A stretch of DNA of 40,595 bases from positions 1 through 40,595 of IMG/VR virus record IMGVR_UViG_3300027365_000029; one strand, 5' to 3'. The notes below the pieces were generated by a model. The model made no database searches. It had not been told where the DNA came from and saw only the letters and a list, made by a program, of their open reading frames with translations. Numbering within the stretch: the stretch's first letter is position 1; every line of letters starts with the position of its first letter. This DNA comes from a virus. Below, in pieces: positions 19,261-36,811 of this stretch. Both the position numbers and the translations under genes were made by a program.

Positions 19261-21735
19261 ATGGGCAAGGCTGTGGTGCTGCAGCATCTGGGCGAGGCTG
19301 AATACAGCGTGGAGCTCAAGTTCAACCGGGACCGGGCCGAGCAAAATATCTCCCGCATGCAGGAGCGCGCGGACAACCTGGAGACCGAGGTCATCCCGGA
19401 TCTGGAGGCTGCCCGAAACTCGGCCCAGACCGACATGAATGAGGCCTCCGCCGATCTGAACGCGGCCATTGACACCGGGACCCGGGAGGAAATCGAGACC
19501 GCGCAGGGTGTGTACCTGTCCGCGCACCAGGCGTATCTGGGCGCGGCCCGGGAGCTGTCCGCGGCCGAGGGGGAAAAGGCAGTTTTGCAGAGGCGCGTGC
19601 AAACCATCCAAAACAATTTGCCCGAGGACAAAACCATCTCCGCCTGGTGCGCGGATTATGTGACCAACCTGGAGGGCGAGGTGGGCACGGTGGAGGTCCC
19701 GGGCGAAAGGCAGCACGTGCAGCTCCGCCCCGGATACGAGGGCCGGGCCGCGTTCGACCCGCCCCGGGACGGGAGGATCACCCCGGTCATGTCCACCACC
19801 CCGGCGGGCGCGTTCTTTAATCTGGCCCTATTGCCCGGCTGGCAGCGGTGGATGCCGCAGTATCGCCTGGGGGTGATTGGCAATATCAATACGGACACGG
19901 ACACCTGCGACGTGACCCTGGACTCCGAGACCAGCTCGGTGCGCGACCTGTCCGTGGATCAGGATCTGGATCTGCAGGGCGTGCCCATCGAGTACATGAA
20001 TTGCCACTCGGCCGCGTTCAGCGACGGGGACCGGGTGCTGGTGGAATTTTTGGACCGCGATTTCACGGACCCGGTGGTGATCGGGTTCGAGAGCTCCCCC
20101 CTGCCCTGCGCCGGGGTGCTTTTGAGCCGGTGTCCGGAGCACCGGGAATACAAGTTCAGCCCCCTGGATTCGGATATAGAATTTTATGTAACCGAGGATG
20201 CCGGGGGGGAACTCGTGGTTTTCGCCGATCCGGACGGCAGCACCCCGGACGGACCGTGCGAGACCGAGCACGATCACTGGGAGTATTTCACCATAGACGG
20301 GTCCGGAGTTTCATCTGTGATCCACGCCGCGCACTCGAAAACCGAGTTTGCCCTGGATATATTCCCCCGGGCCAACCAGATATGGGACTTTTGCTCCAGA
20401 TATCCGGGACATCCCATTTGCGACGGGGGGCGGCCCCGCTCCTATGCCGAATTTTCCGAGGTCCCGTACACGGACTGGGAGGATACCCTGCAGGCCGTGA
20501 ACACTGACGTCAATGAAAACACCACATACCTGGAGGACATCGACGAGACCTGGGATATTATGGCCGTGCCCGGCGGTTCCGGTGACTGCGAGGACTATGC
20601 CCTGACCAAGATGCAGAAACTCGCGGACGCCGGTTTCCCCGCGGACGCCATGGATCTCTTGTACTGCACCCTGGACGGCACCCCGCACGCGGTCATGGTC
20701 GCGAACACGGACCAGGGCATATTCTATCTGGAGCAGACCCCGAACCAGCCCCTGCGCTATTACGAGGAACTGAAGGACAAAAACTGCATGACCAGGCTGC
20801 CCCGGCCGATCAGCATCGAGCCGGAATCCGGAGACGTGGAAATCACCTCCGCAGGCAATGTACTGGTGCACCATACCCCGGCGGAAATCATCACCGGGGT
20901 GGGCGAAAACAGCTGCGGAATCATCCGCATCTATTCCAACTATCTCCTGGCCCTGCAGGTGGAGGCGGTTTTGTCCAACGCGGAGGACCGGGTTTTCGCG
21001 ATCGACGATTACAGCGTGGCCGAAAACTGGATTTATGTCGCCGACTCTTACGCCCGGGTAATCGGGGATCAGGGGGACGAAATAGAGCTCATAAACAGCG
21101 ACGCCAATAACGGCACATACACCATCGCCTCTACGGAATACGGCCCGGACTATCAGACCGCGAAAATATATCTGCAGGAAAACCTGACTACGCCGGGGGA
21201 CGGCGAGGACATCCGCGAGGTGCGGCTTACAAACGTGGTCCTTTTCGGGAATGTGTACAATGTTTTGTATCGGTACGTGCACACCGGGGACCCCGGCACG
21301 GACTACGCGGAGATCGTGAATTATGAGTTCGTGCAGTATTTGCACCAGGACTGGGAGTGGAACGGCTCCGAATGGGTTCCTCCGGAGGATAACGCGATAA
21401 GCATAGGGCCATTTACCGGGGTTATCTGTGATGATCGGGAATCCGGATGTGGTTATGCCCAGCACCACCCGCTGGATTTATACAAGCTGGAAATAGGCGG
21501 GGCAGGCACGGAACCCATGCCCTTTTTTGTCGGCAAGCGAAACCACCAGGCCGGCTATGCGGTTGTAAGCAGAACGCATGGCGCAACAAAATATTCGTCA
21601 AAGCGATACGAGGCGGAGGGCGGAACAGCTTGCCCGTTCAGAGTAGTTTTGGATTATCCGGAAGATGATCAGGACCTGGCCGATTATTTTGAGAATTTGT
21701 CTTTCTATAACGACTTGGCTGCGGAGGATCAGTAG
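19261..21735 (+). CDS. Tail protein with LapG-like transglutaminase-type cysteine peptidase domain
   Basis: An 824-aa protein directly after the tape measure. Residues about 20-125 are a helical coiled coil. From about 400 a domain of the bacterial transglutaminase-like cysteine proteinase type (LapG family) is visible. The nucleophile is C443 in GDCEDYALTKMQKLADAGFP and H476 is in PHAVMVA. The position usually held by Asp seems to be E491 in FYLEQTPNQP. A module with ANNGTYTIAS near 620 also occurs in the next fibre gene. It may be a tail-tip enzyme acting on a host surface protein or on peptidoglycan peptides. The substrate is unknown. A structural transglutaminase-like fold without activity is possible because of the Asp to Glu change. 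Confidence 0.68.
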   Translation: MGKAVVLQHLGEAEYSVELKFNRDRAEQNISRMQERADNLETEVIPDLEAARNSAQTDMNEASADLNAAIDTGTREEIETAQGVYLSAHQAYLGAARELSAAEGEKAVLQRRVQTIQNNLPEDKTISAWCADYVTNLEGEVGTVEVPGERQHVQLRPGYEGRAAFDPPRDGRITPVMSTTPAGAFFNLALLPGWQRWMPQYRLGVIGNINTDTDTCDVTLDSETSSVRDLSVDQDLDLQGVPIEYMNCHSAAFSDGDRVLVEFLDRDFTDPVVIGFESSPLPCAGVLLSRCPEHREYKFSPLDSDIEFYVTEDAGGELVVFADPDGSTPDGPCETEHDHWEYFTIDGSGVSSVIHAAHSKTEFALDIFPRANQIWDFCSRYPGHPICDGGRPRSYAEFSEVPYTDWEDTLQAVNTDVNENTTYLEDIDETWDIMAVPGGSGDCEDYALTKMQKLADAGFPADAMDLLYCTLDGTPHAVMVANTDQGIFYLEQTPNQPLRYYEELKDKNCMTRLPRPISIEPESGDVEITSAGNVLVHHTPAEIITGVGENSCGIIRIYSNYLLALQVEAVLSNAEDRVFAIDDYSVAENWIYVADSYARVIGDQGDEIELINSDANNGTYTIASTEYGPDYQTAKIYLQENLTTPGDGEDIREVRLTNVVLFGNVYNVLYRYVHTGDPGTDYAEIVNYEFVQYLHQDWEWNGSEWVPPEDNAISIGPFTGVICDDRESGCGYAQHHPLDLYKLEIGGAGTEPMPFFVGKRNHQAGYAVVSRTHGATKYSSKRYEAEGGTACPFRVVLDYPEDDQDLADYFENLSFYNDLAAEDQ

Positions 21736-22091: not shown

Positions 22092-24233
22092 ATGTCTGGA
22101 ATAACCGCTACATTTGAAGAGGTCCTGTGGCCCATAGTCGATTTAGACAACGTGAATGACACGTTTTTCATCTCCGGGGACAAGGTGGATCTGATCCTGG
22201 GGGATGAGGTGGATCTGGACGGTGGGGCGGTGCAGATAACCGTGGCCGGCAGCACCGGCAACGACGGGACATATACCGTGTCCTCGCTGGGCTATTACCC
22301 CCCGGACCGGGACGAGACGCAGATAAATGTTCAGGAGAGTGTCTCCGACTCTACTGTGGACGGAGCCATTCCCTGGAATTACAGGTTTTCCGTGACCGGG
22401 GACAGGACCTCGGAATTTTCGGTTTACAGGCGCATCCGGGCCAACTGCGGATCGGACGGTTACAAATACAGCTATGTCCTGTCCGCTGCATATAACTCCG
22501 CGGAAAACAAGACCATAATCAACCTGGGCAGCCCGGTGCTCACGTCCAATCTGATAGAAGTGCATTATGGCCGGATCAGCGTAGGAGAAAGCGGGGCCCT
22601 CCCGGTCAAGGGGGTGCAGGAGAACTTGCCCCGCGATTTGGCCGGACTGGATCATGGTGGTCAAAACGCCCGGGGAAGCAAGGCGCTGAACCTGCAAACA
22701 GGCCGGCCTGCATCGCACCGAGTAGCCTATGGAGATTATTCGGTGGCCATCGGATATGGGCCCTTTGCCCTGGGCAAGGGCGCGGTGGCCATTGGCTGGT
22801 CTGATAATGGCAGCCCCCATGCCGAGAAGTATGCTGTCACGGTCGGGAAAAATGCCAAGGCGGACTATTATTGTGTAAGCATTGGCAAGGATGTGAAGGC
22901 TTATCAGGAGTCAGTATCTATAGGGAAGGGCGCCGAGGCGTTTAATTATAGCGCTGCTGTAGGGCCCGGGGCTGACAGTGGTGGGAGCTATTCCGTAGCT
23001 GTGGGCTACAATGCGTCCGCCGACAACCAGGGGGCCGTGGCCGTGGGCGGCAAAACAACGGCTGGGTACAACGGCGTGGCCGTGGGCCATAATGTTGAAT
23101 CAGGCTGGGGCGGGGTAAGTATAGGATATGGTCTGGCTTATAGTTCCACTCAGCCGGATGACGCCCCTGGAGCGGAAGCTGTTGCTATTGGCTATAACAT
23201 ATATGCCGGAGCGGAATCTGTTGCCATTGGGGACGGACCAAAGGCGGGTGCCGTGGCCGTGGCTATTGGGTATAATGCCCAGGCCAAGGCGGAGACTGTG
23301 GCCATCGGCAATATGAGTTATGCTTCCTACGATGGATTTGCCGGAGGTAGCCATGCTCACGCAAAAGCAGGCAGCACTGCCGTCGGTGCATATACTACAA
23401 CCGAATATTCCTCTGTTTCGGTGGGCTATTCTGCGGAAGCCAAAAATAGCGCCGCCGCAATGGGCTATAAAGCGTATGCAGGCAACGGGGCTGTGGCCGT
23501 GGGATATCAGGCCCACGCCTCGCAATTAGGTCTGGCTGTGGGCTACAAGGCCAAGGGGGCCGCGAGCTATGCCGCGATTATTTCCGGCGGGATCTGCACC
23601 CGCAAGACCGCCAATTCCTCCGGGAAGCACCCCATGCTTGATTTTGCGGCTGCGGAGACCACTGTCATGTCCGGGGTGGTCGATCTAACCGCGGCCGGGG
23701 ACACCGAGATCAGCCTGCCCACCGGGGCCGGGTTTTTCCCCAACGAAGTCGGCGTGCTCATCACCGAGCAGGCAGCGGTTGACTGGGCCATCACCGCCGT
23801 GGACACATCAAATGATTGGCTGGCTGTCTCCGGGGACCAATCCGCGGCCGTGGATACCGGGGACGAGTTCACCGTCAGCGGCAGCACCGGCAACGACGGG
23901 ACATATACCGTGTCCTCGCTTACCTATGACTCCGAAAACGATCAAACCGAGATCCATGTATCCGAGAGTGTGGATGATTCCACGGCGGATGGTTCGATCA
24001 GTTATTTTCGGCAGCCGTCCGTGAGCTTTGGTGAAGGGTCAGCCGACCCGGCCACCCTTTCCGCCTCGGCTCAAACCACCGGACTGGACTCGGCCGGGGC
24101 TCGGGAGCGGCGGCAGGCCCTGGACAAGGATGCCGGGGTGAGCACCTTGTCCGCGACCGTGGATACCGCGGCCACTGCTGATACCCTGTCCGGCCGTGTG
24201 TATTTCCAGGGCCTGTTTGTGGAGGATGAATAA
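22092..24233 (+). CDS. Tail fibre with YadA-like head repeats
   Basis: A 713-aa fibre. Residues about 210-490 consist of many 14-16 residue units of the Hep_Hag/YadA-head type, such as SVAIGYGPFALGKGAVAIGW, ESVAIGDGPKAG and GAVAVGYQAHAS. These fold into a trimeric left-handed beta-roll in bacterial adhesins. Flanking modules at about 45-95 and 585-640 share GSTGNDGTYTVSSL, with a 41-bp perfect DNA repeat (22248-22288 and 23880-23920). The C-terminus has LDSAGARERRQALDKDAGV, common in phage fibres. It probably binds the host surface. The YadA-type head suggests borrowing from an adhesin or convergent repeat growth. Confidence 0.8.
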   Translation: MSGITATFEEVLWPIVDLDNVNDTFFISGDKVDLILGDEVDLDGGAVQITVAGSTGNDGTYTVSSLGYYPPDRDETQINVQESVSDSTVDGAIPWNYRFSVTGDRTSEFSVYRRIRANCGSDGYKYSYVLSAAYNSAENKTIINLGSPVLTSNLIEVHYGRISVGESGALPVKGVQENLPRDLAGLDHGGQNARGSKALNLQTGRPASHRVAYGDYSVAIGYGPFALGKGAVAIGWSDNGSPHAEKYAVTVGKNAKADYYCVSIGKDVKAYQESVSIGKGAEAFNYSAAVGPGADSGGSYSVAVGYNASADNQGAVAVGGKTTAGYNGVAVGHNVESGWGGVSIGYGLAYSSTQPDDAPGAEAVAIGYNIYAGAESVAIGDGPKAGAVAVAIGYNAQAKAETVAIGNMSYASYDGFAGGSHAHAKAGSTAVGAYTTTEYSSVSVGYSAEAKNSAAAMGYKAYAGNGAVAVGYQAHASQLGLAVGYKAKGAASYAAIISGGICTRKTANSSGKHPMLDFAAAETTVMSGVVDLTAAGDTEISLPTGAGFFPNEVGVLITEQAAVDWAITAVDTSNDWLAVSGDQSAAVDTGDEFTVSGSTGNDGTYTVSSLTYDSENDQTEIHVSESVDDSTADGSISYFRQPSVSFGEGSADPATLSASAQTTGLDSAGARERRQALDKDAGVSTLSATVDTAATADTLSGRVYFQGLFVEDE
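22248..22288 (+). repeat. 41-bp direct repeat within the fibre gene, first copy
   Basis: Begins GGCAGCACCGGCAACGACGG and is identical over 41 bases to 23880-23920 of the same gene. It encodes the core of a module flanking the YadA-like repeats at each end. Confidence 0.85.
23880..23920 (+). repeat. 41-bp direct repeat within the fibre gene, second copy
   Basis: Identical to 22248-22288. Recombination between the two copies would delete the whole YadA-like repeat block in frame (separation 1632 bp, a multiple of three). Confidence 0.85.
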
Positions 24234-25051
24234 TGAGCGCGGATAAGGTTGTATTTTTCGGCGGCCTGCCCCGCTCCGGGTCCACCCTGCTGGCCAATGT
24301 CCTGGCCCAGAACCAGCGTTTTGAGGTCACTCCTACCTCCCCGCTCTGCGAATACATTGGAGCCATGACTCAGGCGTTTACCAATTCCCCGCAGCGCCGG
24401 GCCTATCTGGATCAGGATCTGGCCCGGGCCCGGTTTCGCTCTGCTGTGCGCGGGGCCATACTCGGCTATTTCTCCGCCCCGGTCGGGGCGGATAAAGGCC
24501 GGGGCTGGACCGGGCAGTGTGATCTGCTCACCCGAGTATTTGGCGCGGGGCTGAAGATGATTGTTCCGGTGCGGGATTTGCGCGGCTGCGTAGTTAGCCA
24601 GGAAAAGAAATATCGCCATAACCCGGAGTTTGCCTGGGACGGACACATGCTGGACCTGCCCGGACGGGTCGGGCACTGGCTGAACTCCGCCCCGCTCGGC
24701 CCGGCCGCGACCCAGATAAAAGAGGCCCTGCACACCCGGCACGCCGAGGCCATGTGCTTCGTGCGCATGGAGGATTTCTGCGCCGCCCCGGAGCGTGAGC
24801 TGGACCGGCTATATGCGTATATTGACGAGGACCGCTTTGCCCATGACCTGCAAAACATCCCCACCCGGCCCCGGGAGCATGACGGGGTGCACGCCCCGCT
24901 CGGGGATCACCGCCTGACCGATTCCTGCATCCGGCCGGTGGCCGAGGACTGGGATGCGGTGCTGGGGGTGGAGTTGAGCGAGCGCATTGTCCGGGAGAAC
25001 GCCTGGTTTTATCAGACATTTTATCCGGAGCGGATTACATGCAGTGGGTGA
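24233..25051 (+). CDS. Sulfotransferase (PAPS-dependent)
   Basis: A 272-aa enzyme of the sulfotransferase family, expected to move a sulfo group from PAPS to an acceptor. The 5'-phosphosulfate loop is GLPRSGST at 11-18, right after the first beta strand (KVVFFGG). The 3'-phosphate site is R114 and S122 in VRDLRGCVVSQ, with the canonical eight-residue spacing. FVRMEDFCAAPE matches the later conserved strand-helix. The gene overlaps both neighbours (ATG in the fibre stop, stop inside the next gene), so it is an integral late gene, not a loose insertion. Possible acceptors are phage fibre tyrosines or glycans, or host surface polysaccharide. None can be chosen from sequence. Confidence 0.82.
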   Translation: MSADKVVFFGGLPRSGSTLLANVLAQNQRFEVTPTSPLCEYIGAMTQAFTNSPQRRAYLDQDLARARFRSAVRGAILGYFSAPVGADKGRGWTGQCDLLTRVFGAGLKMIVPVRDLRGCVVSQEKKYRHNPEFAWDGHMLDLPGRVGHWLNSAPLGPAATQIKEALHTRHAEAMCFVRMEDFCAAPERELDRLYAYIDEDRFAHDLQNIPTRPREHDGVHAPLGDHRLTDSCIRPVAEDWDAVLGVELSERIVRENAWFYQTFYPERITCSG

Positions 25052-26098: not shown

Positions 26099-28408
26099 AT
26101 GAAGACCTATTTACAGATGCTCGGGTTCACCGCCCGGGACGCACGCGAGGCCGCGGTAAACAATTCCATAACCGACGGCAACATTGAGACCGCACCCAGC
26201 GAGGACGCGGTGCATGCCGCATTAAAACAGTTGAGGGATATACATGTCACAGCATACTGGTATTCGGAAGTTACTAGCGGAACAACGGGAACTGTCACGC
26301 CGCCGTCGGGATCTATCGCGCTCGACCGCTGGCCGGATGGGGTTGATGCTGTCGCGAGCCAGATTGGCACGGACGGAGCACCGAATTGGGAAACGCCTCT
26401 CACCTCTGCGGGCAGCCCGGTCACGGTCGCGCTGGATGCTGACGGCAATTATACTCTTAGTGATACTCCAGATAGTTATCCTGTTGCTGTCATATACGCC
26501 TATCGGACTACATTAGCCGAATTTGACGACACCCAGAGCATGGCCGAGGCCGAGCTGGACCAGCTGGCTTCCGGGGTGTTTGACGACTCCGAGGTGGACC
26601 AGGGAGACGTGGCCGCGGCCCTGACCTGGCTCAAGGATAATCGCTATACAGACAGTGAGGCGGTTAGTGCGGTAAACGCCGAAACATCCCTTTCCGTGGA
26701 CATAACCGGCAACGCGGACACGGCTACGGATGCGGACACCCTGGATGGCAGTCACCTGGCCGACATCCAAAGCGAGATAGATGGCGATATTTCCGATCAT
26801 GCTGATATTTCAGATGCCCACCACAGCCGCTACACAGACTCCGAAGCGGTAAGTGCGGTAAATAATGACGCGGATCACGGTGCGACCGCACAGCACGATT
26901 ATTTTTCCGGCTCACATCAAGACCTTACAGATGTTAACTCAGATGACCATCACTCTCGTTATACGGACAGCGAAGCGGTAAGCGCGGCTGAAGGCGCGGC
27001 TGTTGCGGTGCCCGGCGATCAGTCTGCCGGGTTGCTTATTAAGTGGAACGAAAACGGCGAACTCCCGGCTACCATGAGTGCCGGAGTTATCGGCACCCCC
27101 GGACAGGTTGGGTTTGGTGCTGGTATTTGTCCGCCTGAAGTGCTCCTTGACGGCATGACTCCGCTTTCGGGGTACACCGACCCGACCAACGACAACTACG
27201 GCAATTACCAGTTCGAAGACGGCTCGGTCATGGTGTTTGTGCCCAAATTTTATTACCGCATCAATCATTCCGACAACCCGACACATAGCGCCTATGCCCC
27301 AAATGACGTGGACATTAAGGGTGTCGAGACGTTCTCCGGCGAGGCGGCGGCGAATATCGTCGGCTACGCCCTGCACCGGGCGTTTAAAGACGGCGACGGT
27401 GAGGGCAACATGGCCGTGCATCCCGGCGTGTTCGTGGATAAGTACATGTGCTCCAAGAATGCCAAGGGTTCCGGCTATGTCGCTTCCAGTATTAAGGACG
27501 GCTTGCCGATAAGCACACACGCGGACCATAACCCCATAGCCGATCTGACAGCCTGCGATTCCAACAATTACTATCAATGTATTGCCGCGGCTCATGCCCG
27601 GGATGGGGTGGACGGAGCAGTTAACTCGAACTCGCGGTTTTTTGCAAGCTCCCGGTTTGTCCAGTCCGCCCTGGGGCTGCCCTCCCTGGCCCACGGCCAG
27701 GCGGCGACATCAACAACATACTGCGCCTGGTACGGGACCAGCAACAATTACCCCAAGGGCTGCAACGACAATTCCCTGGGCGACACCGACGACGCCGAGG
27801 TGACCTACGTATCGGACGGGTATTCCAACTGCGGCAAGACCGGCTCCGGCACGCCGTTTGCCAAGACCACCCACAACGGCCAAAATTGCGGCATCGCAGA
27901 CGTCAATGGCCTGATGTATGAGGTCAACACCGGGTTTGTACGTGACTCTGGCGATAACGATTTTTATGTTTTGGACGAATCGACCAAAATATCCACGCTC
28001 ACATCCGGCACAGGCGGCGCAGCCACGGACGCCTGGGGCGATGCCACGCACCTGGAAACGCTTTATAGTGTGATAACCCTGGGGCACATCGCGGCGGATG
28101 CGACAAATCGATTTGGCAACCCCGGACACCAGACACTATCCGCAGCCCTGTCCGGCGACGGATACCGCATGACTGGCATTGGGTTGCCCAAGGACTCGGA
28201 CGCCAAATCATCCGGCGGCTCGGACCTATTTGGCGAGGATTATTTGCGCGAGTATCACCGCGCCGACATGTGCGCGCTTTCGTGCTGCGGCTGGAGCAAC
28301 GGTTCGCGGTCCGGTGGGTGGGCGTTCTACTTGGGCGTCAGCCGGGCGGTCTCGAGCGCCTATGGTGGCTTCCGGTGCGCCTGTTACCCTGATCTGGTCG
28401 CGCGATAG
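26099..28408 (+). CDS. Variable tail fibre, target of the diversity-generating retroelement
   Basis: A 769-aa fibre. The N-terminal third has three RYTDSEAVSAV units (about residues 183, 245 and 288) with ADTATDADTLDGSHLADIQ, common in phage tail fibres. From about 335 a large C-type-lectin-like (formylglycine-enzyme-type) domain begins. It ends in the variable patch MCALSC-x-x-WSNGS...GFRC at 724-762. Sites matching adenines in the template are C730, G731, R737, Y744, G746, V747, S748, A750, V751, S753, A754, Y755 and A761. This is the ligand-binding face in known retroelement targets such as Mtd. The stop codon lies in the loop of the hairpin after VR. Likely the receptor-binding tip. Confidence 0.92.
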   Translation: MKTYLQMLGFTARDAREAAVNNSITDGNIETAPSEDAVHAALKQLRDIHVTAYWYSEVTSGTTGTVTPPSGSIALDRWPDGVDAVASQIGTDGAPNWETPLTSAGSPVTVALDADGNYTLSDTPDSYPVAVIYAYRTTLAEFDDTQSMAEAELDQLASGVFDDSEVDQGDVAAALTWLKDNRYTDSEAVSAVNAETSLSVDITGNADTATDADTLDGSHLADIQSEIDGDISDHADISDAHHSRYTDSEAVSAVNNDADHGATAQHDYFSGSHQDLTDVNSDDHHSRYTDSEAVSAAEGAAVAVPGDQSAGLLIKWNENGELPATMSAGVIGTPGQVGFGAGICPPEVLLDGMTPLSGYTDPTNDNYGNYQFEDGSVMVFVPKFYYRINHSDNPTHSAYAPNDVDIKGVETFSGEAAANIVGYALHRAFKDGDGEGNMAVHPGVFVDKYMCSKNAKGSGYVASSIKDGLPISTHADHNPIADLTACDSNNYYQCIAAAHARDGVDGAVNSNSRFFASSRFVQSALGLPSLAHGQAATSTTYCAWYGTSNNYPKGCNDNSLGDTDDAEVTYVSDGYSNCGKTGSGTPFAKTTHNGQNCGIADVNGLMYEVNTGFVRDSGDNDFYVLDESTKISTLTSGTGGAATDAWGDATHLETLYSVITLGHIAADATNRFGNPGHQTLSAALSGDGYRMTGIGLPKDSDAKSSGGSDLFGEDYLREYHRADMCALSCCGWSNGSRSGGWAFYLGVSRAVSSAYGGFRCACYPDLVAR
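28268..28384 (+). repeat. Variable repeat (VR) of the retroelement
   Basis: 117 bp at the 3' end of the fibre gene, aligned without gaps to TR 28857-28973. There are 21 differences. Nineteen are at template adenines, out of 27 adenines in TR. Two are T in TR and G in VR (28317 and 28366). The conserved 3' end GGCTTCCGGTGCG-CTGT would be the initiation-of-homing segment. Confidence 0.95.
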
Positions 28409-28414
28409 CGCGAC
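28397..28414 (+). other. Hairpin/cruciform after VR
   Basis: GTCGCGC (28397-28403), loop GATA, GCGCGAC (28408-28414): a perfect 7-bp stem with a tetraloop, 12 bases after VR. Known retroelements use such a stem-tetraloop next to VR to mark the recipient site. The fibre's TAG stop (28406-28408) lies in the loop and first stem base. Confidence 0.85.
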
Positions 28415-28425
28415 AAGGGCATGGC

Positions 28426-28833
28426 ATGAAACAACGCCCTGACGGCGAAGCATCGTTACACAGGAAATTTTGTGAAATGATTAAGCTCTTGAGCATTTAC
28501 CTGAATCATTTTCCTAAACATGAGCGCTACGCATTGTGCCAGCGTATCCGGGACAACGCCTATGCAATCTATGACTATATATCCGAGGGGCAAAAGCGGT
28601 ATTATAAAAAGACTTCGCTAACCGCTCTGGACCTGGCCCACGAAAAATTGCGCATGCAACTCTATCTGGCCTATGAACTTGGCTATTTTCGGTTCAAAGA
28701 CGGCAAGACCGACACCAAGGCCCCGGAAGAAATGGAGGCCCATCGCTACACCACGATCAGTGTCCTGGTCGATGAGTTGGGTAGGATGATCGGGGCCTGG
28801 ATCAAAAAAGTCAAAGAGGTCAACCAATGGTAA
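28426..28833 (+). CDS. avd: Avd-like accessory variability determinant
   Basis: A 135-aa helical protein between VR and TR, the standard place of Avd. It is basic and predicted as four helices (LHRKFCEMIKLLSIYLNHF, RYALCQRIRDNAYAIYDYI, TALDLAHEKLRMQLYLAYEL, RYTTISVLVDELGRMIGAW), matching the pentameric four-helix-bundle family. Avd binds the reverse transcriptase and TR RNA and is required for mutagenic cDNA synthesis. ATG 28426 has AAGGGC upstream. TR begins 23 bases after its stop. Confidence 0.85.
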   Translation: MKQRPDGEASLHRKFCEMIKLLSIYLNHFPKHERYALCQRIRDNAYAIYDYISEGQKRYYKKTSLTALDLAHEKLRMQLYLAYELGYFRFKDGKTDTKAPEEMEAHRYTTISVLVDELGRMIGAWIKKVKEVNQW

Positions 28834-28856
28834 TAAATATTTGGGCAGGCAACATT

Positions 28857-28973
28857 ATGTGCGCGCTTTCGTGCTACAACTGGAGCAACGGTTCGAAGTC
28901 CGGTGTGTGGGCGTTCAACTTGAACAACAACCGGACGAACTCGAACAACAATGTTGGCTTCCGGTGCGACTGT
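28857..28973 (+). repeat. Template repeat (TR) of the retroelement
   Basis: 117 bp with AAC codons concentrated at the sites that vary in VR (for example 28917-28932 and 28944-28952). It is transcribed and reverse-transcribed with errors at adenines. The open frame that spans it (from 28827) encodes MCALSC-Y-N-WSNGS, but this is a by-product, not a gene. Confidence 0.95.
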
Positions 28974-29049
28974 GCTTTTCACCTCAAATCCCGCAGCGGG
29001 AAAAGTGGAGCACAGGGATTGTCTGTCCAGGCGCAGCCGAACTACGCAA

Positions 29050-29092
29050 GCCCCGCCCCTTCCAGTAGGGCGGCCGACCGTCGGGGCGGGGC
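29050..29092 (+). other. Strong hairpin between TR and reverse transcriptase
   Basis: GCCCCGCCCC (29050-29059) pairs perfectly with GGGGCGGGGC (29083-29092), ending six bases before the RT start codon. The G-rich arm is the only ribosome-site-like sequence, so folding would restrain RT translation. It may also be part of the structured TR RNA needed for priming. Confidence 0.65.
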
Positions 29093-29098
29093 GCTTAT

Positions 29099-30130
29099 AT
29101 GAAACGGTACGGACACATTTTTGAGCAGGCTTTCACCATGGACAATCTTTACCGCGCTTATCTCGATGCACGGCGCGGCAAGCGGAAAAAACACGCCTGC
29201 CATCGGTTTTCCGCTAATCTGGGCGCCAATCTGACTGCTCTGCACCGGGAAGTGCATGCCGGTGAATACGTGCCACAGCCATATTACGAGTTTGACGTGC
29301 ACGAGCCAAAGCATCGCCGAATCTACGCCCCGGCTTTCCGGGACGTGGTTGTCCAGCATGCTATATATCGCCATATCTATCCCATCTGGGACCGGGTGTT
29401 TATTGATACGTCGTTTGCCTGTCGCAAGGGCAAAGGGACCCATCGGGCCAGTGACTATACCCAGCGTGCCCTGCGCGCCTGTCACCCGAATAGTTACACC
29501 CTGAAACTCGACGTGCAAAAGTATTTCTATTCCATCTCCCGCCCGGTCCTGCACGAGCTCAAGATGCGCAAAATCAAGGACACGGCATTATTGCGCCTGC
29601 TGTGGCTGTTTACGAAGATGCCTTCTCAGTTGGGCATCCCTATCGGGTGCCTGCTCTCGCAGCTGGACTCCCTGATTTATCTCAACCCGGTGGATCAATT
29701 CATTAAGCGCCAGCTCAAGGTCAGCCGCTATGCCCGCTACGTGGATGACATGGTGTTGTTTGGCCTCTCCAGACAGCAGGCCATGGAGTACAAGCAGGCC
29801 ATTGAGGAGTTTTTACGGAAGCGGTTACGGCTTTCCCTGTCCAAATTTACACAGGCACGAGCCAAGCGCGGCATAAATTTTGTTGGTTATCGCACCTGGG
29901 CCACACACCGGCTCATTCGCAAATACAGCCTGCACAAATTTCGCCGGGCAGTGCTCAGGGGTAAGTTGGAATCGGTAATCTCGCTGATTGGCCATGCCCA
30001 GCATACTCAGTCGTTGCGTTATATGGCCCAGGTAATCATTTCCGGCAACCCCCTGCTTTTTAATCGGCTCCCCAAATCACACAAACGGAGGCTCGTATGG
30101 ACGAATTTGATATCTACGGCCAGCAGTTAA
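29099..30130 (+). CDS. Retroelement reverse transcriptase
   Basis: A 343-aa reverse transcriptase that copies TR RNA into cDNA with errors at adenines. Motifs present are YAPAFRDVVVQHAIY (77-90), catalytic D138 in LKLDVQKYFYSI, GIPIGCLLSQ at 179-188, YVDD at 214-217, and the later INFVGYRTW. The I/LPxGxxxSQ form of motif 4 is characteristic of this class of RTs, which have no maturase or endonuclease domains. It stands last in the order VR, Avd, TR, RT. The 3' end overlaps the next gene by 34 bp. Confidence 0.93.
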   Translation: MKRYGHIFEQAFTMDNLYRAYLDARRGKRKKHACHRFSANLGANLTALHREVHAGEYVPQPYYEFDVHEPKHRRIYAPAFRDVVVQHAIYRHIYPIWDRVFIDTSFACRKGKGTHRASDYTQRALRACHPNSYTLKLDVQKYFYSISRPVLHELKMRKIKDTALLRLLWLFTKMPSQLGIPIGCLLSQLDSLIYLNPVDQFIKRQLKVSRYARYVDDMVLFGLSRQQAMEYKQAIEEFLRKRLRLSLSKFTQARAKRGINFVGYRTWATHRLIRKYSLHKFRRAVLRGKLESVISLIGHAQHTQSLRYMAQVIISGNPLLFNRLPKSHKRRLVWTNLISTASS

Positions 30131-30552
30131 CCGGCGACGAGACGCAGCTGGAGCGCGAAAAGCTGCGCCGCGTGCAGTATTTGAAAAACAAGATGCGCAC
30201 CCGGCTCACGCTCGAACTGGGCGACGACCAGGACACAATCGCCGACCTGACCCGGGCCGTGGTCCTGGGCCTGGGTATTGCCAAGGGGACGGTCACAGAC
30301 CAGACAGTGATTGACCGCTACAATCTGTACCTGCAGGACATGCTCGATGGCTATGGCGGAGCGGAGGCGATCATGGATGTGCTGGAGGACAAAAAAACAG
30401 CTATAGAGCAGCATGTGGTGATGGGCTACTACCTGGCCAAGCAGGACATCCTGGCCGTGCAGGAATCGGACTATGAAAGCCGGTCCGCGGCCATTGACGC
30501 CGTGCGTTCCATCGACTTGCCCGGCGAGCCGGAAATAGACGGGGAGGAATAG
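30097..30552 (+). CDS. Unknown protein downstream of the reverse transcriptase
   Basis: A 151-aa acidic helical protein. It starts MDEFDIYGQQLTGDETQLER with a clear GGAGG site inside the RT gene and is coupled to it by a 34-bp overlap. It contains LTRAVVLGLGIAKG and two long helices. It could be a fibre chaperone, common at the end of the tail module, or an additional retroelement factor. Sequence alone does not decide. Confidence 0.6.
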   Translation: MDEFDIYGQQLTGDETQLEREKLRRVQYLKNKMRTRLTLELGDDQDTIADLTRAVVLGLGIAKGTVTDQTVIDRYNLYLQDMLDGYGGAEAIMDVLEDKKTAIEQHVVMGYYLAKQDILAVQESDYESRSAAIDAVRSIDLPGEPEIDGEE

Positions 30553-30726
30553 GTGGTGCCGGGCAGAATCAAACGGGCTATAGCCACTGTCCGCGAATTC
30601 TCAACCGACGGCTGTTCAACCACCCCGGCAAGCCTACCGCCCAACACCGCCCCGAATCACCCGGAGCCGGCTGCTCTATTCCCTGTTGACAGGGTGGCCG
30701 CCCGCATGTACAAACCGCCCTGTTGA
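30553..30726 (+). CDS. Small unknown protein, last of the late operon
   Basis: A 57-aa frame starting GTG 30553 (or GTG 30556) directly after the preceding stop, with GGGGAGGA in front. The protein begins MVPGRIKRAIATVREFSTDG and is proline-rich later. Support is only the ribosome site and coupling. It may be non-coding. Confidence 0.35.
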   Translation: MVPGRIKRAIATVREFSTDGCSTTPASLPPNTAPNHPEPAALFPVDRVAARMYKPPC

Positions 30727-30749
30727 CGCGCCGAAAATAGCCAATTTCT

Positions 30750-30790
30750 ATTGGCGATTTCATTGGCGATCTTGTGTAAAAATCGCCAAT
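30750..30790. repeat. Integrase arm-type sites, left of the att core
   Basis: ATTGGCGAT at 30750-30758 and 30762-30770, phased 12 bp apart, plus an inverted copy ATCGCCAAT at 30782-30790. The same sequence recurs right of the core (30979, 30991). The surrounding 30727-30840 carries no gene and is A+T-rich. Confidence 0.65.
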
Positions 30791-30859
30791 TTTCACTAAT
30801 AGAAAATAAAACAAAGTTAAGTTTTACAGGCGTTTAACCCGGTCGGCGGATGTCGGGAA

Positions 30860-30922
<63 letters not shown>

Positions 30923-30933
30923 CATACCTGGAT

Positions 30934-32034
30934 TCAAGCCCCATCATCGGGGCTTTTTTTATTGGCGTTTTCGTTTTCATTGGCGATTCTATTGGCGATT
31001 TTGTTGGAGATTTGCATTACCGTGTCGCCCATCTTGCGGTCCACGGATAGTTCATGCAGGTATATCTGGGTGGTCTTTATATTCTGATGACCAAGTAACT
31101 GCTGCACGGAGCGCAGGTCCTGGCGGTCATCTCCCAGGGCGCTGGCGATGTAGTGCCGGATACTGTGCGCGGTGAACGTAGGCACCCCGGCGGCCGTGCA
31201 CAGATCATGGAATAGATATTTAATATCTCGGGACTGGCGGTCGAATGGCCTGCCCGTGCGCGGATTTGCGAAGACGTGTGAGCGGTGTCGCTCTGGACCT
31301 GCGAAGCGGCGTTGCAATATTTCCCGGGCGGCATCATTCATCGCCTGCTGTCGGGGCTCGGTGTCTCCGCCCCGGCGCTTTGACGTCCAGAGCGTGATCA
31401 GCCCGCGGGCGAAGTCAACATCCTCCCACCTGAGCTTGCGGATCTCGGAAATGCGGGCCGCGGTGTGCATCAGCAGCAGTACGAAATCACGCTGCCAGCC
31501 GTCCGCGACGCGCAGGACCTCGGCCAGATCGTCAGCCGGGGGGATGTACTTGATATTTTTCGTGACCGCGTAGGGAGTCAGTCCAGCCGCCGGATTAGGG
31601 CCGGCGAACAGGCCCTCGCGTACGGCGAAGTTGAAAAGCGCGCTGATCTCTATGCGGTATTTGTTTGCAGCCTTGGCCGAGATATGCCGTTTCGCCCAGG
31701 CCAGGAATTCTTTGATTGATTGGCGGTCCAGTTCGCCAATGGAAATGTTGGGGTTGTCGAGGTGGGCGGTCAGCTTTTTCAGCACCGACCGTTTGTAAAT
31801 GTAGGTGTTGTATTTGAGGCGATCGTGAGCATCAGTCAGGTACGCTTCCGCGACCGCCAAGAAGTCCGTGTCGGTCCTCAAACCAGACTTTATTTGGCTT
31901 TCTTTCTCTCGCAGCCAGATCCTGGCCGCGCTCTTGGTCACGAACCCGCCCCGCTTTGCCACGCGTTTGCCGTCCATCCACAGCGTGGCCAGATACCTGC
32001 GACCCTTTTTGGTCTGATACTCCGTGACTGCCAT
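30934..32034 (-). CDS. int: Tyrosine integrase
   Basis: Site-specific recombinase of the phage integrase family. From ATG 32034 it is 366 aa. An arm-binding N-terminus (EYQTKKGRRYLATLWMDGKR) and a SAM-like core-binding domain precede the catalytic domain. Catalytic residues are R194 (AARISEIRKLRW), K219 (TSKRRGG), H290 and R293 (HSIRH), H316 (LLGHQNIKTTQ) and nucleophile Y325. The 3' end points at the tRNA-Ser core, and its last codons contain arm-type repeats. GTG 32043 is an alternative start. It is the last gene of the leftward operon. Confidence 0.93.
   Translation of the reverse strand: MAVTEYQTKKGRRYLATLWMDGKRVAKRGGFVTKSAARIWLREKESQIKSGLRTDTDFLAVAEAYLTDAHDRLKYNTYIYKRSVLKKLTAHLDNPNISIGELDRQSIKEFLAWAKRHISAKAANKYRIEISALFNFAVREGLFAGPNPAAGLTPYAVTKNIKYIPPADDLAEVLRVADGWQRDFVLLLMHTAARISEIRKLRWEDVDFARGLITLWTSKRRGGDTEPRQQAMNDAAREILQRRFAGPERHRSHVFANPRTGRPFDRQSRDIKYLFHDLCTAAGVPTFTAHSIRHYIASALGDDRQDLRSVQQLLGHQNIKTTQIYLHELSVDRKMGDTVMQISNKIANRIANENENANKKSPDDGA
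30936..30960 (+). terminator. Intrinsic terminator after the tRNA half, overlapping the end of int
   Basis: AAGCCCC (30936-30942), six-base loop, GGGGCTT (30949-30955), then T to 30960. It would end transcripts from the reconstituted host tRNA and from the late operon. The int stop codon is at 30936-30934. Confidence 0.78.
30961..31011. repeat. Integrase arm-type sites, right of the att core
   Basis: ATTGGCGAT at 30979-30987 and 30991-30999, again 12 bp apart. A variant GTTGGAGAT lies at 31003-31011 and a partial copy at 30961-30969. They lie inside the 3' end of int, where they encode the NKIANRIANENENAN tail. Confidence 0.65.
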
Positions 32035-32221
32035 ACCCACCACCGCTGAAATTTTGCTTCAGATACGCCAGCACGTCATCAGTGTCAAACAGGGCGTTCT
32101 TCCCGCAGCGGGAGCCGGTGCGGCTCACCTTAAAGAAGTGCGGATATTGCCGCCAGGTGTGGTAAAGGTTTTTCCGGGTCGTATGCAGGAATTCGGCCAG
32201 GCCGTCTATGTCCACTATCAT
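31832..32221 (-). CDS. Excisionase-like HTH protein overlapping int
   Basis: The first 60 residues (MIVDIDGLAEFLHTTRKNLY onward, with FDTDDVLAYLKQ) fit small AlpA/Xis-type winged-HTH proteins with N-terminal DxxxLAxxLxxxxxxLY. The frame then continues 70 residues through the 5' end of int in another phase, giving 129 aa and about 200 bp of overlap. The tail (YGSHGVSDQKGSQVSG) has no domain character. It starts at ATGA shared with the preceding gene's stop. Likely Xis, directing excision at the att site. Confidence 0.6.
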   Translation of the reverse strand: MIVDIDGLAEFLHTTRKNLYHTWRQYPHFFKVSRTGSRCGKNALFDTDDVLAYLKQNFSGGGYGSHGVSDQKGSQVSGHAVDGRQTRGKAGRVRDQERGQDLAARERKPNKVWFEDRHGLLGGRGSVPD

Positions 32222-32679
32222 GTCAGATCCACCACCATTTTTTCGGGCGGGAACATGTTTTCCTGCAAATGCCGGATATGGCGATCTTCATAATCGCGCT
32301 TTTCCTGCTGCCGCTTTTCGATCTCGTCCGGGTCAAAATATTCGGGACGCTCACGCAGCATATCCCGAAACCCCTGCTCGGCCAGGCCGGGTAGCTTTAG
32401 CTGCTGCTTGAATTTTTTGAGCTTCATTTTCTTGCGCCGTTCGGCCAAGACGGCCCCGATTTTAAAGTTCGTTCTTCTAAACGGATCGAACCACCAGTGC
32501 TGTGAATATCCGGACCCAAGGTCTGTAGGATCGTTCTTTTTTATGATGTTGGACAGCTCCTGCATCTTTTCTCGAGGAGCCCTCCCCCAGATCAGCGCGA
32601 CATCCTGGCCGGCTGGCGGTTTCGTGTAGGGGTTGTTCCAGGCCACAACTATATAGACTGACTTAGAGCTTTTCATCAT
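32218..32679 (-). CDS. Early protein, unknown
   Basis: 153 aa from ATG 32679, where GGAGG lies ten bases upstream. The protein starts MMKSSKSVYIVVAWNNPYTK. A first part of about 75 residues is compact and aromatic (SGYSQHWWFDPFRRTNF). The second part is basic and helical (AERRKKMKLKKFKQQLKLPG, EIEKRQQEKRDYEDRHIRHL). Not recognised. It lies in a tightly overlapping run of small early genes upstream of int. Confidence 0.6.
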   Translation of the reverse strand: MMKSSKSVYIVVAWNNPYTKPPAGQDVALIWGRAPREKMQELSNIIKKNDPTDLGSGYSQHWWFDPFRRTNFKIGAVLAERRKKMKLKKFKQQLKLPGLAEQGFRDMLRERPEYFDPDEIEKRQQEKRDYEDRHIRHLQENMFPPEKMVVDLT

Positions 32680-32812
32680 GCCGAACTCGCCTCCGCTCTT
32701 CAGAAGTGTACCGCTTTCCACTGGGGCGAAACTCCAGGCCGGGCATAAATTCCCAGATTGTGTGCCGGTACTCACGCTTAACAGTTTCCGCGGCATTTCT
32801 ATTCTTATTCAT
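32663..32812 (-). CDS. Small early protein, unknown
   Basis: A 49-aa basic protein, MNKNRNAAETVKREYRHTIW at the start and SEERRRVRHDEKL at the end. The start overlaps the preceding stop (ATGA) and the end overlaps the next gene by 17 bp, so it is coupled on both sides. Its codon pattern and fit in the chain support it; function unknown. Confidence 0.5.
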   Translation of the reverse strand: MNKNRNAAETVKREYRHTIWEFMPGLEFRPSGKRYTSEERRRVRHDEKL

Positions 32813-32973
32813 TTATTCACCCCATCCACCTGCTCCCGCGTCAGACCGGCCAGCCTTTGCAGCCAGTCCGCGGCATCGTAAAGTGCTGCCGCATAAACAA
32901 CATTCCGTTGCGCCAGGGCGATCAAACGCAGTTGCCGGATTAAAGAGTATATACGTTCCTGGTCATCTGACAT
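32809..32973 (-). CDS. Small early protein, unknown
   Basis: A 54-aa helical protein starting MSDDQERIYSLIRQLRLIAL and ending LAGLTREQVDGVNK. It overlaps the stop of the gene before it by 11 bp and the start of the gene after it by 4 bp. Not recognised. Confidence 0.5.
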   Translation of the reverse strand: MSDDQERIYSLIRQLRLIALAQRNVVYAAALYDAADWLQRLAGLTREQVDGVNK

Positions 32974-33295
32974 TGTCGCACCCCCACGCTTTACAAAATT
33001 GCTCCATCATTTCTTTTGTTCGGAAGCCCATCCAGGCCCAGCCGTGGATAGTTGCCCCGCCAATATACCAATCACCGGGCCTGCCATGAATTGGCCATGC
33101 GTCTAAGCCAAACTGTTCCTTGCACCAGCTGATAATCTCCCTATATTTGCTATCTCCCGGACTGCCAGTATAAACATCAATCATCCAAGGAAATTGGCTC
33201 CAAATTTCGTACATCAAAGCATCTTGCTCATTCTCAATTTTGAGCGATGCAATTTGTCGTTGATACAATTCAGTCCCTTTCGTCTTCTTCATCAT
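32963..33295 (-). CDS. Early protein, unknown
   Basis: A 110-aa protein with AGGAG before a double ATG. The C-terminal two thirds are rich in Trp and Gly (WPIHGRPGDWYIGG, TIHGWAWMGFRTKEMMEQF) and look like a small alpha-beta fold. It is the first protein gene after the interrupted tRNA-like gene. Its base composition is more A+T-rich than the late genes. No family recognised. Confidence 0.6.
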   Translation of the reverse strand: MMKKTKGTELYQRQIASLKIENEQDALMYEIWSQFPWMIDVYTGSPGDSKYREIISWCKEQFGLDAWPIHGRPGDWYIGGATIHGWAWMGFRTKEMMEQFCKAWGCDNVR

Positions 33296-33319
33296 TTAGC
33301 TCCTGCTTTTATATTTGAT

Positions 33320-33457
33320 GCAGGGAGGCAGGATTTGAACCTGCAAATACTGGGCCTGTCTAATATCCAGTCTTTCTGCTCCCAAATAGGAAGACCGAAA
33401 TAGTCTTGAGTCCTACGGGAACAAACAGGGGCGTCTACCAATTCCGCCACTCCCTGC
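33320..33457 (-). tRNA. tRNA-like gene with a roughly 58-base insertion in the anticodon loop
   Basis: Read on the minus strand. Acceptor CAGGGAG (33456-33450) pairs with CTCCCTG (33327-33321). A Leu-type D-arm GCGGAATTGGTAGACGC follows. Anticodon stem CCTGT (33429-33425) pairs with ACAGG (33359-33355). T-arm is GCAGG-TTCAAAT-CCTGC (33344-33328). Between the anticodon-stem halves are 65 bases instead of 7. Removing 58 would leave loop TTGTTAG (anticodon GTT) and an RNA of about 80 bases without encoded CCA. The insert folds by itself: TCCC/GGGA, TAGG/CCTA, AAGAC/GTCTT. The D-loop suggests Leu, the inferred anticodon Asn, so identity is unsettled. It may be an intron-bearing tRNA, a degenerate tRNA or a tRNA mimic. 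Confidence 0.6.
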
Positions 33458-33465
33458 ATGATGGA

Positions 33466-33702
33466 TTATTCTGCGATTTCTATAAGCTCATAGTCCACGA
33501 TGTCTGGCGAAAGAATTTTAGCCTTGGATTTCCAAGTCACCACACCACAGCATATGGTTTCTACCTCATCATACCATTCTCCATCTTCTATAGCCTCATC
33601 TCTTTCAGCATCCAAAGCAGCCTGAGCATATTCGATAGCTTCTTCCATTGTGCTGTGCAGTTCAAAACCGTCATGTTCGTCAAAACTAAAATATTTGTCC
33701 AT
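33466..33702 (-). CDS. Small acidic early protein, unknown
   Basis: 78 aa from ATG 33702, which has AAGGAGGATAAA directly in front. The frame extends further upstream only as shadow. The protein is strongly acidic (AALDAERDEAIEDGEWYDE), with a CC pair at about 51-52 in ETICCGVVTW. Such small acidic phage proteins are often DNA mimics or inhibitors, but nothing specific supports this here. It ends nine bases before the tRNA-like gene. Confidence 0.65.
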   Translation of the reverse strand: MDKYFSFDEHDGFELHSTMEEAIEYAQAALDAERDEAIEDGEWYDEVETICCGVVTWKSKAKILSPDIVDYELIEIAE

Positions 33703-33718
33703 TTTATCCTCCTTCCGG

Positions 33719-34087
33719 CTATACCACCGGGCTAAACTGCGCATGCCCGGCCCCGGGGCAGCCGGGGTGGTAGTCAATCTCCTGGAACGGGTCGTGCACC
33801 TGGCCTTGGTTCTGAGGCTTGACCTTTTGCACGCGGTTGGGACCGTACTGCTTACGGCCCTTATCCCACTTGCGCTGGTTTTGCCGCTGCAGCTCTTTTC
33901 TGCACCCGTCCGAGCAAGTGCGCCGGCTCGGCGTCCGGGAGTTATATTCAAAAAACTCCCCGCAGATGCAGCAAAAAATAAATCCATTTTTCCGCATCAG
34001 ATCCCGGCACTTCTTACAGTATTTAACCGCCTCCCCATCTCCAGGGAGCTGCATCCAGGTATTGCACTTTGCGCACTGCTTTTTCAT
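33719..34087 (-). CDS. Multi-zinc-ribbon protein
   Basis: A 122-aa protein with four Cys pairs: CAKC (5-8), CKKC (24-27), CCIC (39-42) and CSDGC (58-62). A basic stretch (RKELQRQNQRKWDKGRKQYG) and a disordered tail follow. The arrangement suggests two zinc sites and nucleic-acid binding. It is coupled to the small membrane protein upstream through ATGA. No precise family named. Confidence 0.68.
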   Translation of the reverse strand: MKKQCAKCNTWMQLPGDGEAVKYCKKCRDLMRKNGFIFCCICGEFFEYNSRTPSRRTCSDGCRKELQRQNQRKWDKGRKQYGPNRVQKVKPQNQGQVHDPFQEIDYHPGCPGAGHAQFSPVV

Positions 34088-34179
34088 GCGAACACCCCCA
34101 GGAGCACGCAGATAACCAGCACCGCGGCCAGGAAAACCGCTCCGCCCAGGACCATGTAGATCTTGTCAATTATGTCCAC
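34084..34179 (-). CDS. Single-span membrane miniprotein
   Basis: 31 aa from GTG 34179 (GGAGGGCGGAC before it): a short polar head MDIIDKIYM and one hydrophobic helix (VLGGAVFLAAVLVICVLLGVF). A longer in-frame start exists at ATG 34257, adding a basic 26-residue extension without a good ribosome site. The stop overlaps the zinc-ribbon protein start. Function unknown. Between 34258 and 34299 I see nothing. Confidence 0.5.
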   Translation of the reverse strand: MDIIDKIYMVLGGAVFLAAVLVICVLLGVFA

Positions 34180-34299
34180 GTCCGCCCTCCATCTGCTAGT
34201 AGCCGGCCGCATCCCATGCGGTTCTTTTCTGGCCGGTGCATTGTCGCGCCAGCTCATGGCCTGTAAGTCCCATCGGCTGCGACCGCCTGGATTGAGTGG

Positions 34300-34560
34300 T
34301 TAGTTTTTGTCCGGCCAATCCAAAGAGTTCGCCCATTCAATAAGCTCGGTTTTTGTTTTAAACGTGTGGACTCTTTGCTTGAAAGCACTAGCAAGGCGGG
34401 ACCACAATGCCAGAAGAGTTATGGTTCCGGTAAAAAACGTCCACCACGTGCTTCCCTGGCTGATCCAAATGCAAAAGATTAAAAACGAAAAGGTAACAAT
34501 ATCTTTAAAAACGCTTTCTGAAACTGATTCTGTCCTATCGATAACTTTAATTTCATCCAT
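34300..34560 (-). CDS. Small membrane protein, unknown
   Basis: 86 aa with a polar start (MDEIKVIDRTESVSE), two hydrophobic stretches at about 22-34 and 41-55 (IVTFSFLIFCIWI, FFTGTITLLALWSRL), and a C-terminal WANSLDWPDKN. GGGGGATCGC precedes ATG 34560. It is A+T-rich relative to the late genes. An exclusion or signalling role is possible but not shown. Confidence 0.62.
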   Translation of the reverse strand: MDEIKVIDRTESVSESVFKDIVTFSFLIFCIWISQGSTWWTFFTGTITLLALWSRLASAFKQRVHTFKTKTELIEWANSLDWPDKN

Positions 34561-34629
34561 GCGATCCCCCCTGAAAACTAACGATTGAAATAACCGGCGC
34601 GGCCTTATCGCGTCCGGTTGATTGATTGG

Positions 34630-35118
34630 TTATACCTTCATAAACACAAGCCAGTGCGTCTTGCCGCTTCGGCCCGACAGATTCCCAAAAAGAGGACTCT
34701 GCGGAGAAAGCCCGAGAACTTCTTTAGTGGACACCTGTATCTCGTTCCATTTAAAAACGAGAACCCCGCCGACTTCCAACACCCGAAAACACTCTTGAAA
34801 GCCTTGCCGCAAATCCTCCCGCCAGTTCTTGCCCAGCTTCCCATACTTAGCGGCCATCCAGCTTTTTTTACCTGCTCTGGTTAAGTGCGGCGGGTCAAAG
34901 GCTATCAACTTAAAAGAGCTGTCAGGAAAAGGCAGATCCCGGAAATCAAGCTGAATATCCGGCTCGATTACAAGCGTCCGCTTGCCATCTGCTTTTCCAT
35001 GAGATCGGTCGGTGACAGTGATAGTTTCCCGGCGCTGGTCTCCAAAAATAACGTTTTCGTTTTCTCGGTCGTCCCACATCATTTTACTGCCACAACATGG
35101 ATCTAATATTTTCAGCAT
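34630..35118 (-). CDS. Class I SAM-dependent methyltransferase (DPPH type)
   Basis: 162 aa from ATG 35118. SAM-binding motif I is ILDPCCGSKMMWDD at the start. The catalytic-type motif is IAFDPPHL, a variant of the DPPY/NPPY motif of amino-methyltransferases. LIFKWNE-like VLVFKWNEIQV follows, with KTHWLVF at the end. Short phage proteins of this kind are common in early regions and may methylate DNA to evade restriction. The target is unknown and no recognition domain is present. ATG 35145, five bases after the ssb stop, is another start. Confidence 0.75.
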   Translation of the reverse strand: MLKILDPCCGSKMMWDDRENENVIFGDQRRETITVTDRSHGKADGKRTLVIEPDIQLDFRDLPFPDSSFKLIAFDPPHLTRAGKKSWMAAKYGKLGKNWREDLRQGFQECFRVLEVGGVLVFKWNEIQVSTKEVLGLSPQSPLFGNLSGRSGKTHWLVFMKV

Positions 35119-35149
35119 GAGGTCTCGCTTTGAAGGTATAACCATAAAA

Positions 35150-35596
35150 TTAGAACGGTGCGTCATCCATTCCTGCGGCATCGTTTGGGAACGCCGGACC
35201 GTTTGGCGGGGTCTCGGGTTGAGTCGCGCCGGAGTTGTTGCCGGGTCCGGAGCTGCGCGTCCCCTTGCTTTCCAGAAATTGCACGCGCTGGGCTTTTATC
35301 TGGGTAGTGTACCTGTCCCGGCCCTCCTTATCCTCCCATTTTTGGGTCTGGATGCGGCCCTCAACCAGGACCAGACTGCCCTTGTTCAGATATTGGGCGC
35401 AGGCCTCGGCCTGCTTATTAAATACAGTTACACGGTGCCATTCTGTCTGCTCAACACGGTTGCCCGCGCGGTCGGTGTATGACTCGTCCGTGGCCACGTT
35501 CAGGTTCGTGACCGGGGTGCCGCTCTTTGCGTAGCGCAATTCCGGGCTTCGTCCCAGGCGGCCGACTATTATTGCCTTATTTAATGATCCGGACAT
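35150..35596 (-). CDS. ssb: Single-stranded DNA-binding protein
   Basis: A 148-aa OB-fold protein: MSGSLNKAIIVGRLGRSPEL, then NLNVATDESYTDRAGN, EWHRVTVFNKQAE, GSLVLVEGRIQTQKW. The C-terminus is disordered, rich in G, P and N, and ends MDDAPF, the acidic tip that recruits replication partners. AAGGAGCGGCAA precedes ATG 35596. It probably covers single strands during phage replication or recombination. Confidence 0.93.
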   Translation of the reverse strand: MSGSLNKAIIVGRLGRSPELRYAKSGTPVTNLNVATDESYTDRAGNRVEQTEWHRVTVFNKQAEACAQYLNKGSLVLVEGRIQTQKWEDKEGRDRYTTQIKAQRVQFLESKGTRSSGPGNNSGATQPETPPNGPAFPNDAAGMDDAPF

Positions 35597-35795: not shown

Positions 35796-35816
35796 ATTAT
35801 CCTCCTGTTTTTTTAT

Positions 35817-36774: not shown

Positions 36775-36811
36775 TACTCTGGTTTTACTCAAAGCCCCGG
36801 GGGATGGCGGG

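Follow-up and report, generated by a model that had tools for sequence, protein, structure and literature searches.

A complete diversity-generating retroelement of BPP-1 architecture in a tailed phage from IMG/VR, with a covarying RNA between its template repeat and reverse transcriptase

The virus record IMGVR_UViG_3300027365_000029, a whole IMG/VR record of 40,595 bases that is called the window here, contains a complete diversity-generating retroelement (DGR). Its parts follow one another in the order target gene, variable repeat (VR), hairpin, accessory variability determinant (avd), template repeat (TR) and reverse transcriptase (RT), as they do in the Bordetella phage BPP-1. A reading of the letters alone had already proposed this list of parts, and its order and every one of its coordinates proved correct when rechecked (Table 1). 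We are nearly certain that this phage cassette is a DGR built like that of BPP-1 and that it diversifies the tip with which a tail protein binds its receptor. In about 80 loci whose RT is 52-62% identical to that of the window, the parts follow one another in this order too, at comparable distances. The identity of the element is not in itself surprising, as DGRs are a known kind of system of which tens of thousands have been catalogued; the catalogue of Roux et al. 2021 holds more than 30,000 (PMC8144416). The window cassette resembles the phage-encoded lineages of that catalogue in being carried by a virus, in having a structural protein as its target and in belonging to a class that is broadly active.

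Table 1. Parts of the DGR cassette, in window coordinates
Feature	Position	Strand	Description
Target gene	26099..28408	+	Open reading frame, 769-aa tail-fibre-like protein
VR	28268..28384	+	117 bp; target residues 724-762; 13 codons changed through adenines
Initiation of mutagenic homing (IMH) region	28367..28396	+	VR 3' end plus spacer; exact boundary inferred
DNA hairpin/cruciform	28397..28414	+	GTCGCGC-GATA-GCGCGAC; 7-bp stem, GATA loop
avd	28426..28833	+	135 aa
TR	28857..28973	+	117 bp; 27 adenines, mostly within AAC/AAT codons
Sp RNA	28970..29092	+	From TR 3' edge to just upstream of RT gene; covarying in clade
RT	29099..30130	+	343 aa; YVDD, IPIGCLLSQ

The relationship between the two repeats is what identifies the element most directly. 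TR and VR differ at 21 of 117 positions, and 19 of these differences fall on TR adenines (A>G 12, A>T 4, A>C 3), while the other 2 are T>G changes. The chance that 19 of 21 differences would land on the 27 adenines is 1.1e-13, so that the adenine bias noticed in the letters is confirmed by alignment. VR matches TR at 96 of 117 positions and the next-best site in the window at 53 of 117, and no second VR was found anywhere in the record. VR and TR also show, at their 3' ends, the expected contrast between IMH and IMH*. The 3'-most change, at base 28380 (GAC to GCC), is C in VR and A in TR in all 65 scorable loci of the clade to which the window RT belongs. This constancy shows that base 28380 is a fixed IMH/IMH* marker which escapes replacement and is not a random change, and the mutable adenines are therefore better counted as 18 changed of 26; the 19 of 27 reported earlier stands as a raw count. 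The earlier figure of 13 varying codons likewise holds for codons that differ through adenines, and the total is 15, made up of 12 changed by mutable adenines, the marker codon and 2 changed by T>G. The expectation that template codons mutate without producing stops applies to the AAC codons, which cannot become stops, but not to an AAG codon at TR 28896-28898, which could.

The RT has the features expected of a DGR enzyme. It matches the phage RT family phrog_1423 (3e-100), and its best match among solved structures is 8ub7 (5e-64), an entry named "Reverse transcriptase" that we take to be the BPP-1 bRT; the next match is a group II RT at 3e-24. YVDD is present, and the motif IPIGCLLSQ, of the DGR type IPIGxLLSQ, stands where group II RTs have QGxxxSP. 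Phylogenetic analysis of 44 RTs, with group II intron RTs as the outgroup, separated all DGR RTs from the group II intron RTs at 100/99. The window RT belongs to a clade of 17 RTs (100/100) and does not group with BPP-1 brt, which lies in a separate clade of 6 RTs (100/100). On this tree and its SQ motif, alignment to known retroelement RTs places the window enzyme inside the DGR clade. The adjacent open reading frame, described earlier as Avd-like, matches curated Avd families (bAvd PF22296, 4e-16; phrog_3206, 7e-22), and its match to NF033474 (4e-21, 75 bits) falls slightly below the cut-off of 80.

Generic RT models also match the window RT weakly, among them group II RT at 2.6e-30 and several DRT models, and one could ask whether the enzyme comes from a group II intron, a retron or a defence system, with the two repeats being an ordinary duplication. 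None of the curated cut-offs is reached by these matches, which score 106 bits of 300 for group II, 57 of 200 for Drt3a and 42 of 235 for retron St85. The match to the presumed BPP-1 bRT is better than the next by about 40 orders of magnitude, the tree separates DGR from group II RTs at 100/99, the motif is SQ and not SP, an Avd lies next door, and the mismatches between the repeats are directed at adenines. The tree together with the TR/VR pattern rules out such an origin, and we give it next to no weight against a DGR.

Downstream of VR, the hairpin begins 12 nt past the end of the repeat and has a perfect, GC-rich stem. Its predicted DNA fold is -12.2 kcal/mol (z -3.5), and it satisfies the rule of Guo et al., which specifies a stem of 7-10 bp, a GRNA loop and a position 4-34 bp after VR (PMC3240598). 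The stop codon of the target gene, TAG at 28406-28408, had been placed in the hairpin loop; its T and A are there, while its G sits in the stem. Since the BPP-1 hairpin contains the mtd stop codon (PMC3240598), overlap of stop and hairpin is an already known trait. The usual loop in the clade is GATA or GGTA with a G directly after it, which allows a single GRTAG to act as loop and stop together. A search for the exact-stem hairpin found it in 22 of 73 relatives, and because most of the others carry a variant form, this number reflects the limit of the search and not the absence of a hairpin. The variant form was seen in 26 of 56 distinct clade members (L061:5313-5350 and 25 other relatives). 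Its GRTA loop is closed by a stem of 2 bp, which is flanked by GA/GA mismatches (GAGCGATAGCGA). Its two pairs covary (GC, GT, AC), and it departs from the published uninterrupted stems of 7-10 bp.

The sequence-only reading did not list a structured, covarying RNA that lies between TR and RT and is the equivalent of BPP-1 "Sp". Its first helix, P1, joins the 3' edge of TR to a segment past a GTGG block, with CTGTGCT at 28970-28976 pairing with AGCACAG at 29009-29015. An inner stem pairs 28989-28993 with 28997-29001, and a terminal helix pairs 29050-29059 with 29083-29092. In the clade, near-invariant blocks (CCTC...GTGG, AGGGA, TCC, GCGAA-T, GTAG and CGA) are set among pairs that covary, and 15 of 21 consensus pairs change on both sides. 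For the helix that links Sp to the edge of TR, 45 distinct sequences gave a mean pairing score of 9.0 with their true partners and 6.4 +/- 0.3 with swapped ones, and none of 2,000 permutations scored above 7.64. A covariance model of Sp detects the element in held-out loci of the clade, and the window, which was in the building set of the model, scores 82.6 bits and is among the best clade members. The model found no match in BPP-1, in loci of the BPP clade or in more distant DGRs, which is evidence of divergence and not of structural absence. Rfam gave no credible match to Sp, the only hit being RT-15 at chance level (16 bits, where the gathering score is 82). In BPP-1, the spacer RNA recruits RT-Avd and primes cDNA synthesis from an internal adenine (PMC12875486), and by analogy the window Sp would play the same role.

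An open reading frame at 28827-29102 runs through TR in the frame of VR, overlaps avd at its stop codon and RT at its start, and would allow TR itself to be translated. TR must however be open in this frame, since VR must be. Beyond TR the frame varies among relatives, where it meets an immediate stop, runs into RT or ends by chance at the ATGA of RT starts. Because the reading frame is not conserved in relatives, we judge it to be a mechanical consequence of the repeat, and translation of TR is very improbable.

Residues ~317-765 of the target form a conserved DGR target module that is found in about 97 loci, mostly as residues 320-765, whereas the N-terminal part is not common to most relatives that carry the module. 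An AlphaFold model of the module (the last ~450 residues; mean pLDDT, the predicted local distance difference test, 82) resembles most closely TaqVP of a Thermus aquaticus prophage (PDB 5vf4), with Z 24.5 over 300 residues, and then variants of Mtd, with Z ~12. A search of the PDB by sequence alone with the target profile also returned TaqVP 5vf4, and its other matches were at chance level. The C-type-lectin-like end proposed earlier for the fibre is thus matched by the predicted fold, and the model supports assigning the C-terminal module to the C-type-lectin fold of the formylglycine-generating enzyme (FGE) type that is found in DGR variable proteins. TaqVP shares with the window target this fold and a C-terminal VR, but the two are only 18% identical over the aligned residues, and the window module is placed on a longer, fibre-like N-terminal part.

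Among named systems, the BPP-1 DGR (mtd-avd-TR-brt) shares with the window its gene order, a receptor-binding gene of the C-type-lectin kind with VR at its 3' end, a GRNA-loop hairpin overlapping the stop codon, Avd, TR, a structured Sp RNA and an RT of the bRT type. By inspection, the motif TCCTGC-loop-GGCGAA is common to the BPP-1 Sp and the window clade. The two systems differ in that the RTs are 38% identical and lie in separate, fully supported clades, the covariance model of the window-clade Sp misses the BPP-1 type, the window clade has an extra variable stem within Sp (again by inspection), and the fold of the window target is nearer to TaqVP than to Mtd. The closest annotated phage is Pseudomonas phage Bise (OR683401), with an RT 57% identical, an Avd ~66-68% identical and the same order of parts. 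We identified a TR/VR pair in Bise with 9 adenine differences and 0 others. Unlike what is seen in the window, the Bise target is shorter (364 aa), and Bise is a contractile-tail phage, with a sheath gene, of Pseudomonas aeruginosa. The Bise locus (L003) is a complete DGR at 19010-21032, with VR at 19010-19125, TR at 19724-19839 and a hairpin. In the annotation of the record, a "four helix bundle protein" is listed there beside a reverse transcriptase and nothing else, and the DGR is unlabelled.

By comparison with BPP-1, a complex of RT and Avd would bind an RNA covering avd, TR and Sp, and Sp would fold beside the 3' edge of TR and prime cDNA synthesis there. RT would then copy TR with frequent errors opposite adenines, and the mutated cDNA would replace VR by way of homology, the GC-rich IMH and the downstream DNA hairpin. 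The expected outcome is new combinations of ~12 residues on a C-type-lectin scaffold, with TR left unchanged, and the diversified tip may allow the phage to switch host receptors.

The sequence-only reading had looked to a variable VR beside a constant TR as the sign of activity, and this is found in related loci. In 19 groups of contigs, 12 of them from the window RT clade, TR is identical while VR differs, and the variable VR columns in these groups are adenine in 314 cases and non-adenine in 19. Four loci from different metagenomes (L061, L063, L064 and L070) differ pairwise at 12-15 VR positions, all of them at TR adenines. For the window phage itself, an RT peptide scan of IMG/VR and a search with a 30-mer common to TR and VR found no close relative, and the activity of the window copy is consequently drawn from its intact parts and its relatives. 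On those grounds the window DGR is probably active.

Several points weigh against the reading of the cassette as a working, tip-diversifying DGR. The nearest RT is ~61% identical, and retrohoming of the cassette is argued here by analogy. The single-sequence fold of the window Sp is not unusual relative to shuffles (z -1.2), and the AlphaFold model is weaker in parts of VR. The window copy might accordingly be a DGR that has become inactive, its VR being the relic of former retrohoming and the two T>G differences having arisen by decay after homing; the lack of observed population variation for this phage and the two non-adenine differences themselves would fit such a history. Yet every open reading frame is intact, RT retains its catalytic YVDD, TR is open and undamaged, the hairpin pairs perfectly and the Sp reaches the 82.6 bits given above. 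Relatives with a constant TR and a diverse VR have T>G changes in their VRs as well. We regard an inactive copy as unlikely and favour an active one.

The two T>G changes in the window, in the codons at 28316-28318 and 28364-28366 (target residues 740 and 756), each turn Val into Gly, and they belong to a wider pattern among the rare non-adenine changes of TR/VR pairs pooled from 201 distinct DGRs. In the window clade we counted T>G 22, T>C 6 and T>A 1, with 18 changes of C and G together, and in the BPP-1 clade T>G 21, T>C 4 and T>A 0, with 8 changes of C and G together. When events are counted once per TR cluster, T sites change more than C/G sites (Fisher p 1e-5 in the window clade and 5e-10 in the BPP-1 clade), and T>G makes up 20 of 26 and 20 of 24 of the T changes, respectively. 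Merging the BPP-clade sites at 85% TR identity reduces the support to 7 of 11 (p 0.05), which indicates that the signal in that clade comes partly from recurrent hotspots. Within the groups of identical TR, T/G accounts for 12 of the 19 non-adenine columns that vary. Related TRs have T at 28 of 32 resolvable T>G sites, and at the two window sites in 24 of 26 and 25 of 25 cases; drift of TR from G to T is rejected as the cause at these 28 sites, both of the window's included. Slippage on a neighbouring base was also rejected, since the T sites are followed on their 3' side by mixed bases.

A>G is the commonest product at adenines in the pooled DGRs, and the simplest reading of the T>G bias would be that RT occasionally puts dC opposite U, much as it prefers dC at a template A. 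Selection on VR or an effect of repair is the alternative explanation. Between these we lean slightly towards a second error channel in phage DGR RTs, weak but specific, that would place dC opposite template U at a rate amounting to a few per cent of that at adenines and yield changes that selection can keep. This bias, which may be a new by-product of the comparison, disagrees with a published survey of 948 DGRs in which thymine was mostly replaced by cytosine and which admitted many non-adenine pairs (PMC6642488).

The remainder of the window encodes phage structural genes, including a lambda-type portal, a fused head protease/capsid protein, a terminase, a tape measure and further tail genes, together with CI-like and CII-like regulators. 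From these regulators the phage looks like a temperate tailed phage, as proposed earlier, though no integrase was found among the window open reading frames scanned. In the tail region, a protein at 22092-24233 carries YadA-head repeats (trimeric adhesin-like) and is possibly a second, non-diversified adhesin. A sulfotransferase-family gene (24233-25051; Sulfotransfer_3, 9e-10; phrog_27463) lies upstream of the DGR target, and an 824-aa tail protein at 19261-21735 has a bacterial transglutaminase-like cysteine peptidase domain (PF06035, 8e-15). The stretch of ~8 kb from RT to the CI-like repressor (30097-38178) has few recognisable genes; it includes a methyltransferase-like open reading frame on the minus strand (34630-35181).

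The window DGR belongs to a large clade of phage RTs that has its own RNA scaffold and whose natural populations show diversification. Comparison within this clade yields two testable by-products, a covarying family of Sp RNAs that Rfam lacks and the bias towards T>G among non-adenine changes. If the weak channel opposite U exists, diversification that is called adenine-specific would also reach codons beyond adenine changes, as with the two changes of Val to Gly seen here, and, with selection keeping such changes, extra codons would be sampled. For the phage, the cassette would be a natural means to search for new host receptors while the remaining genome stays unaltered.

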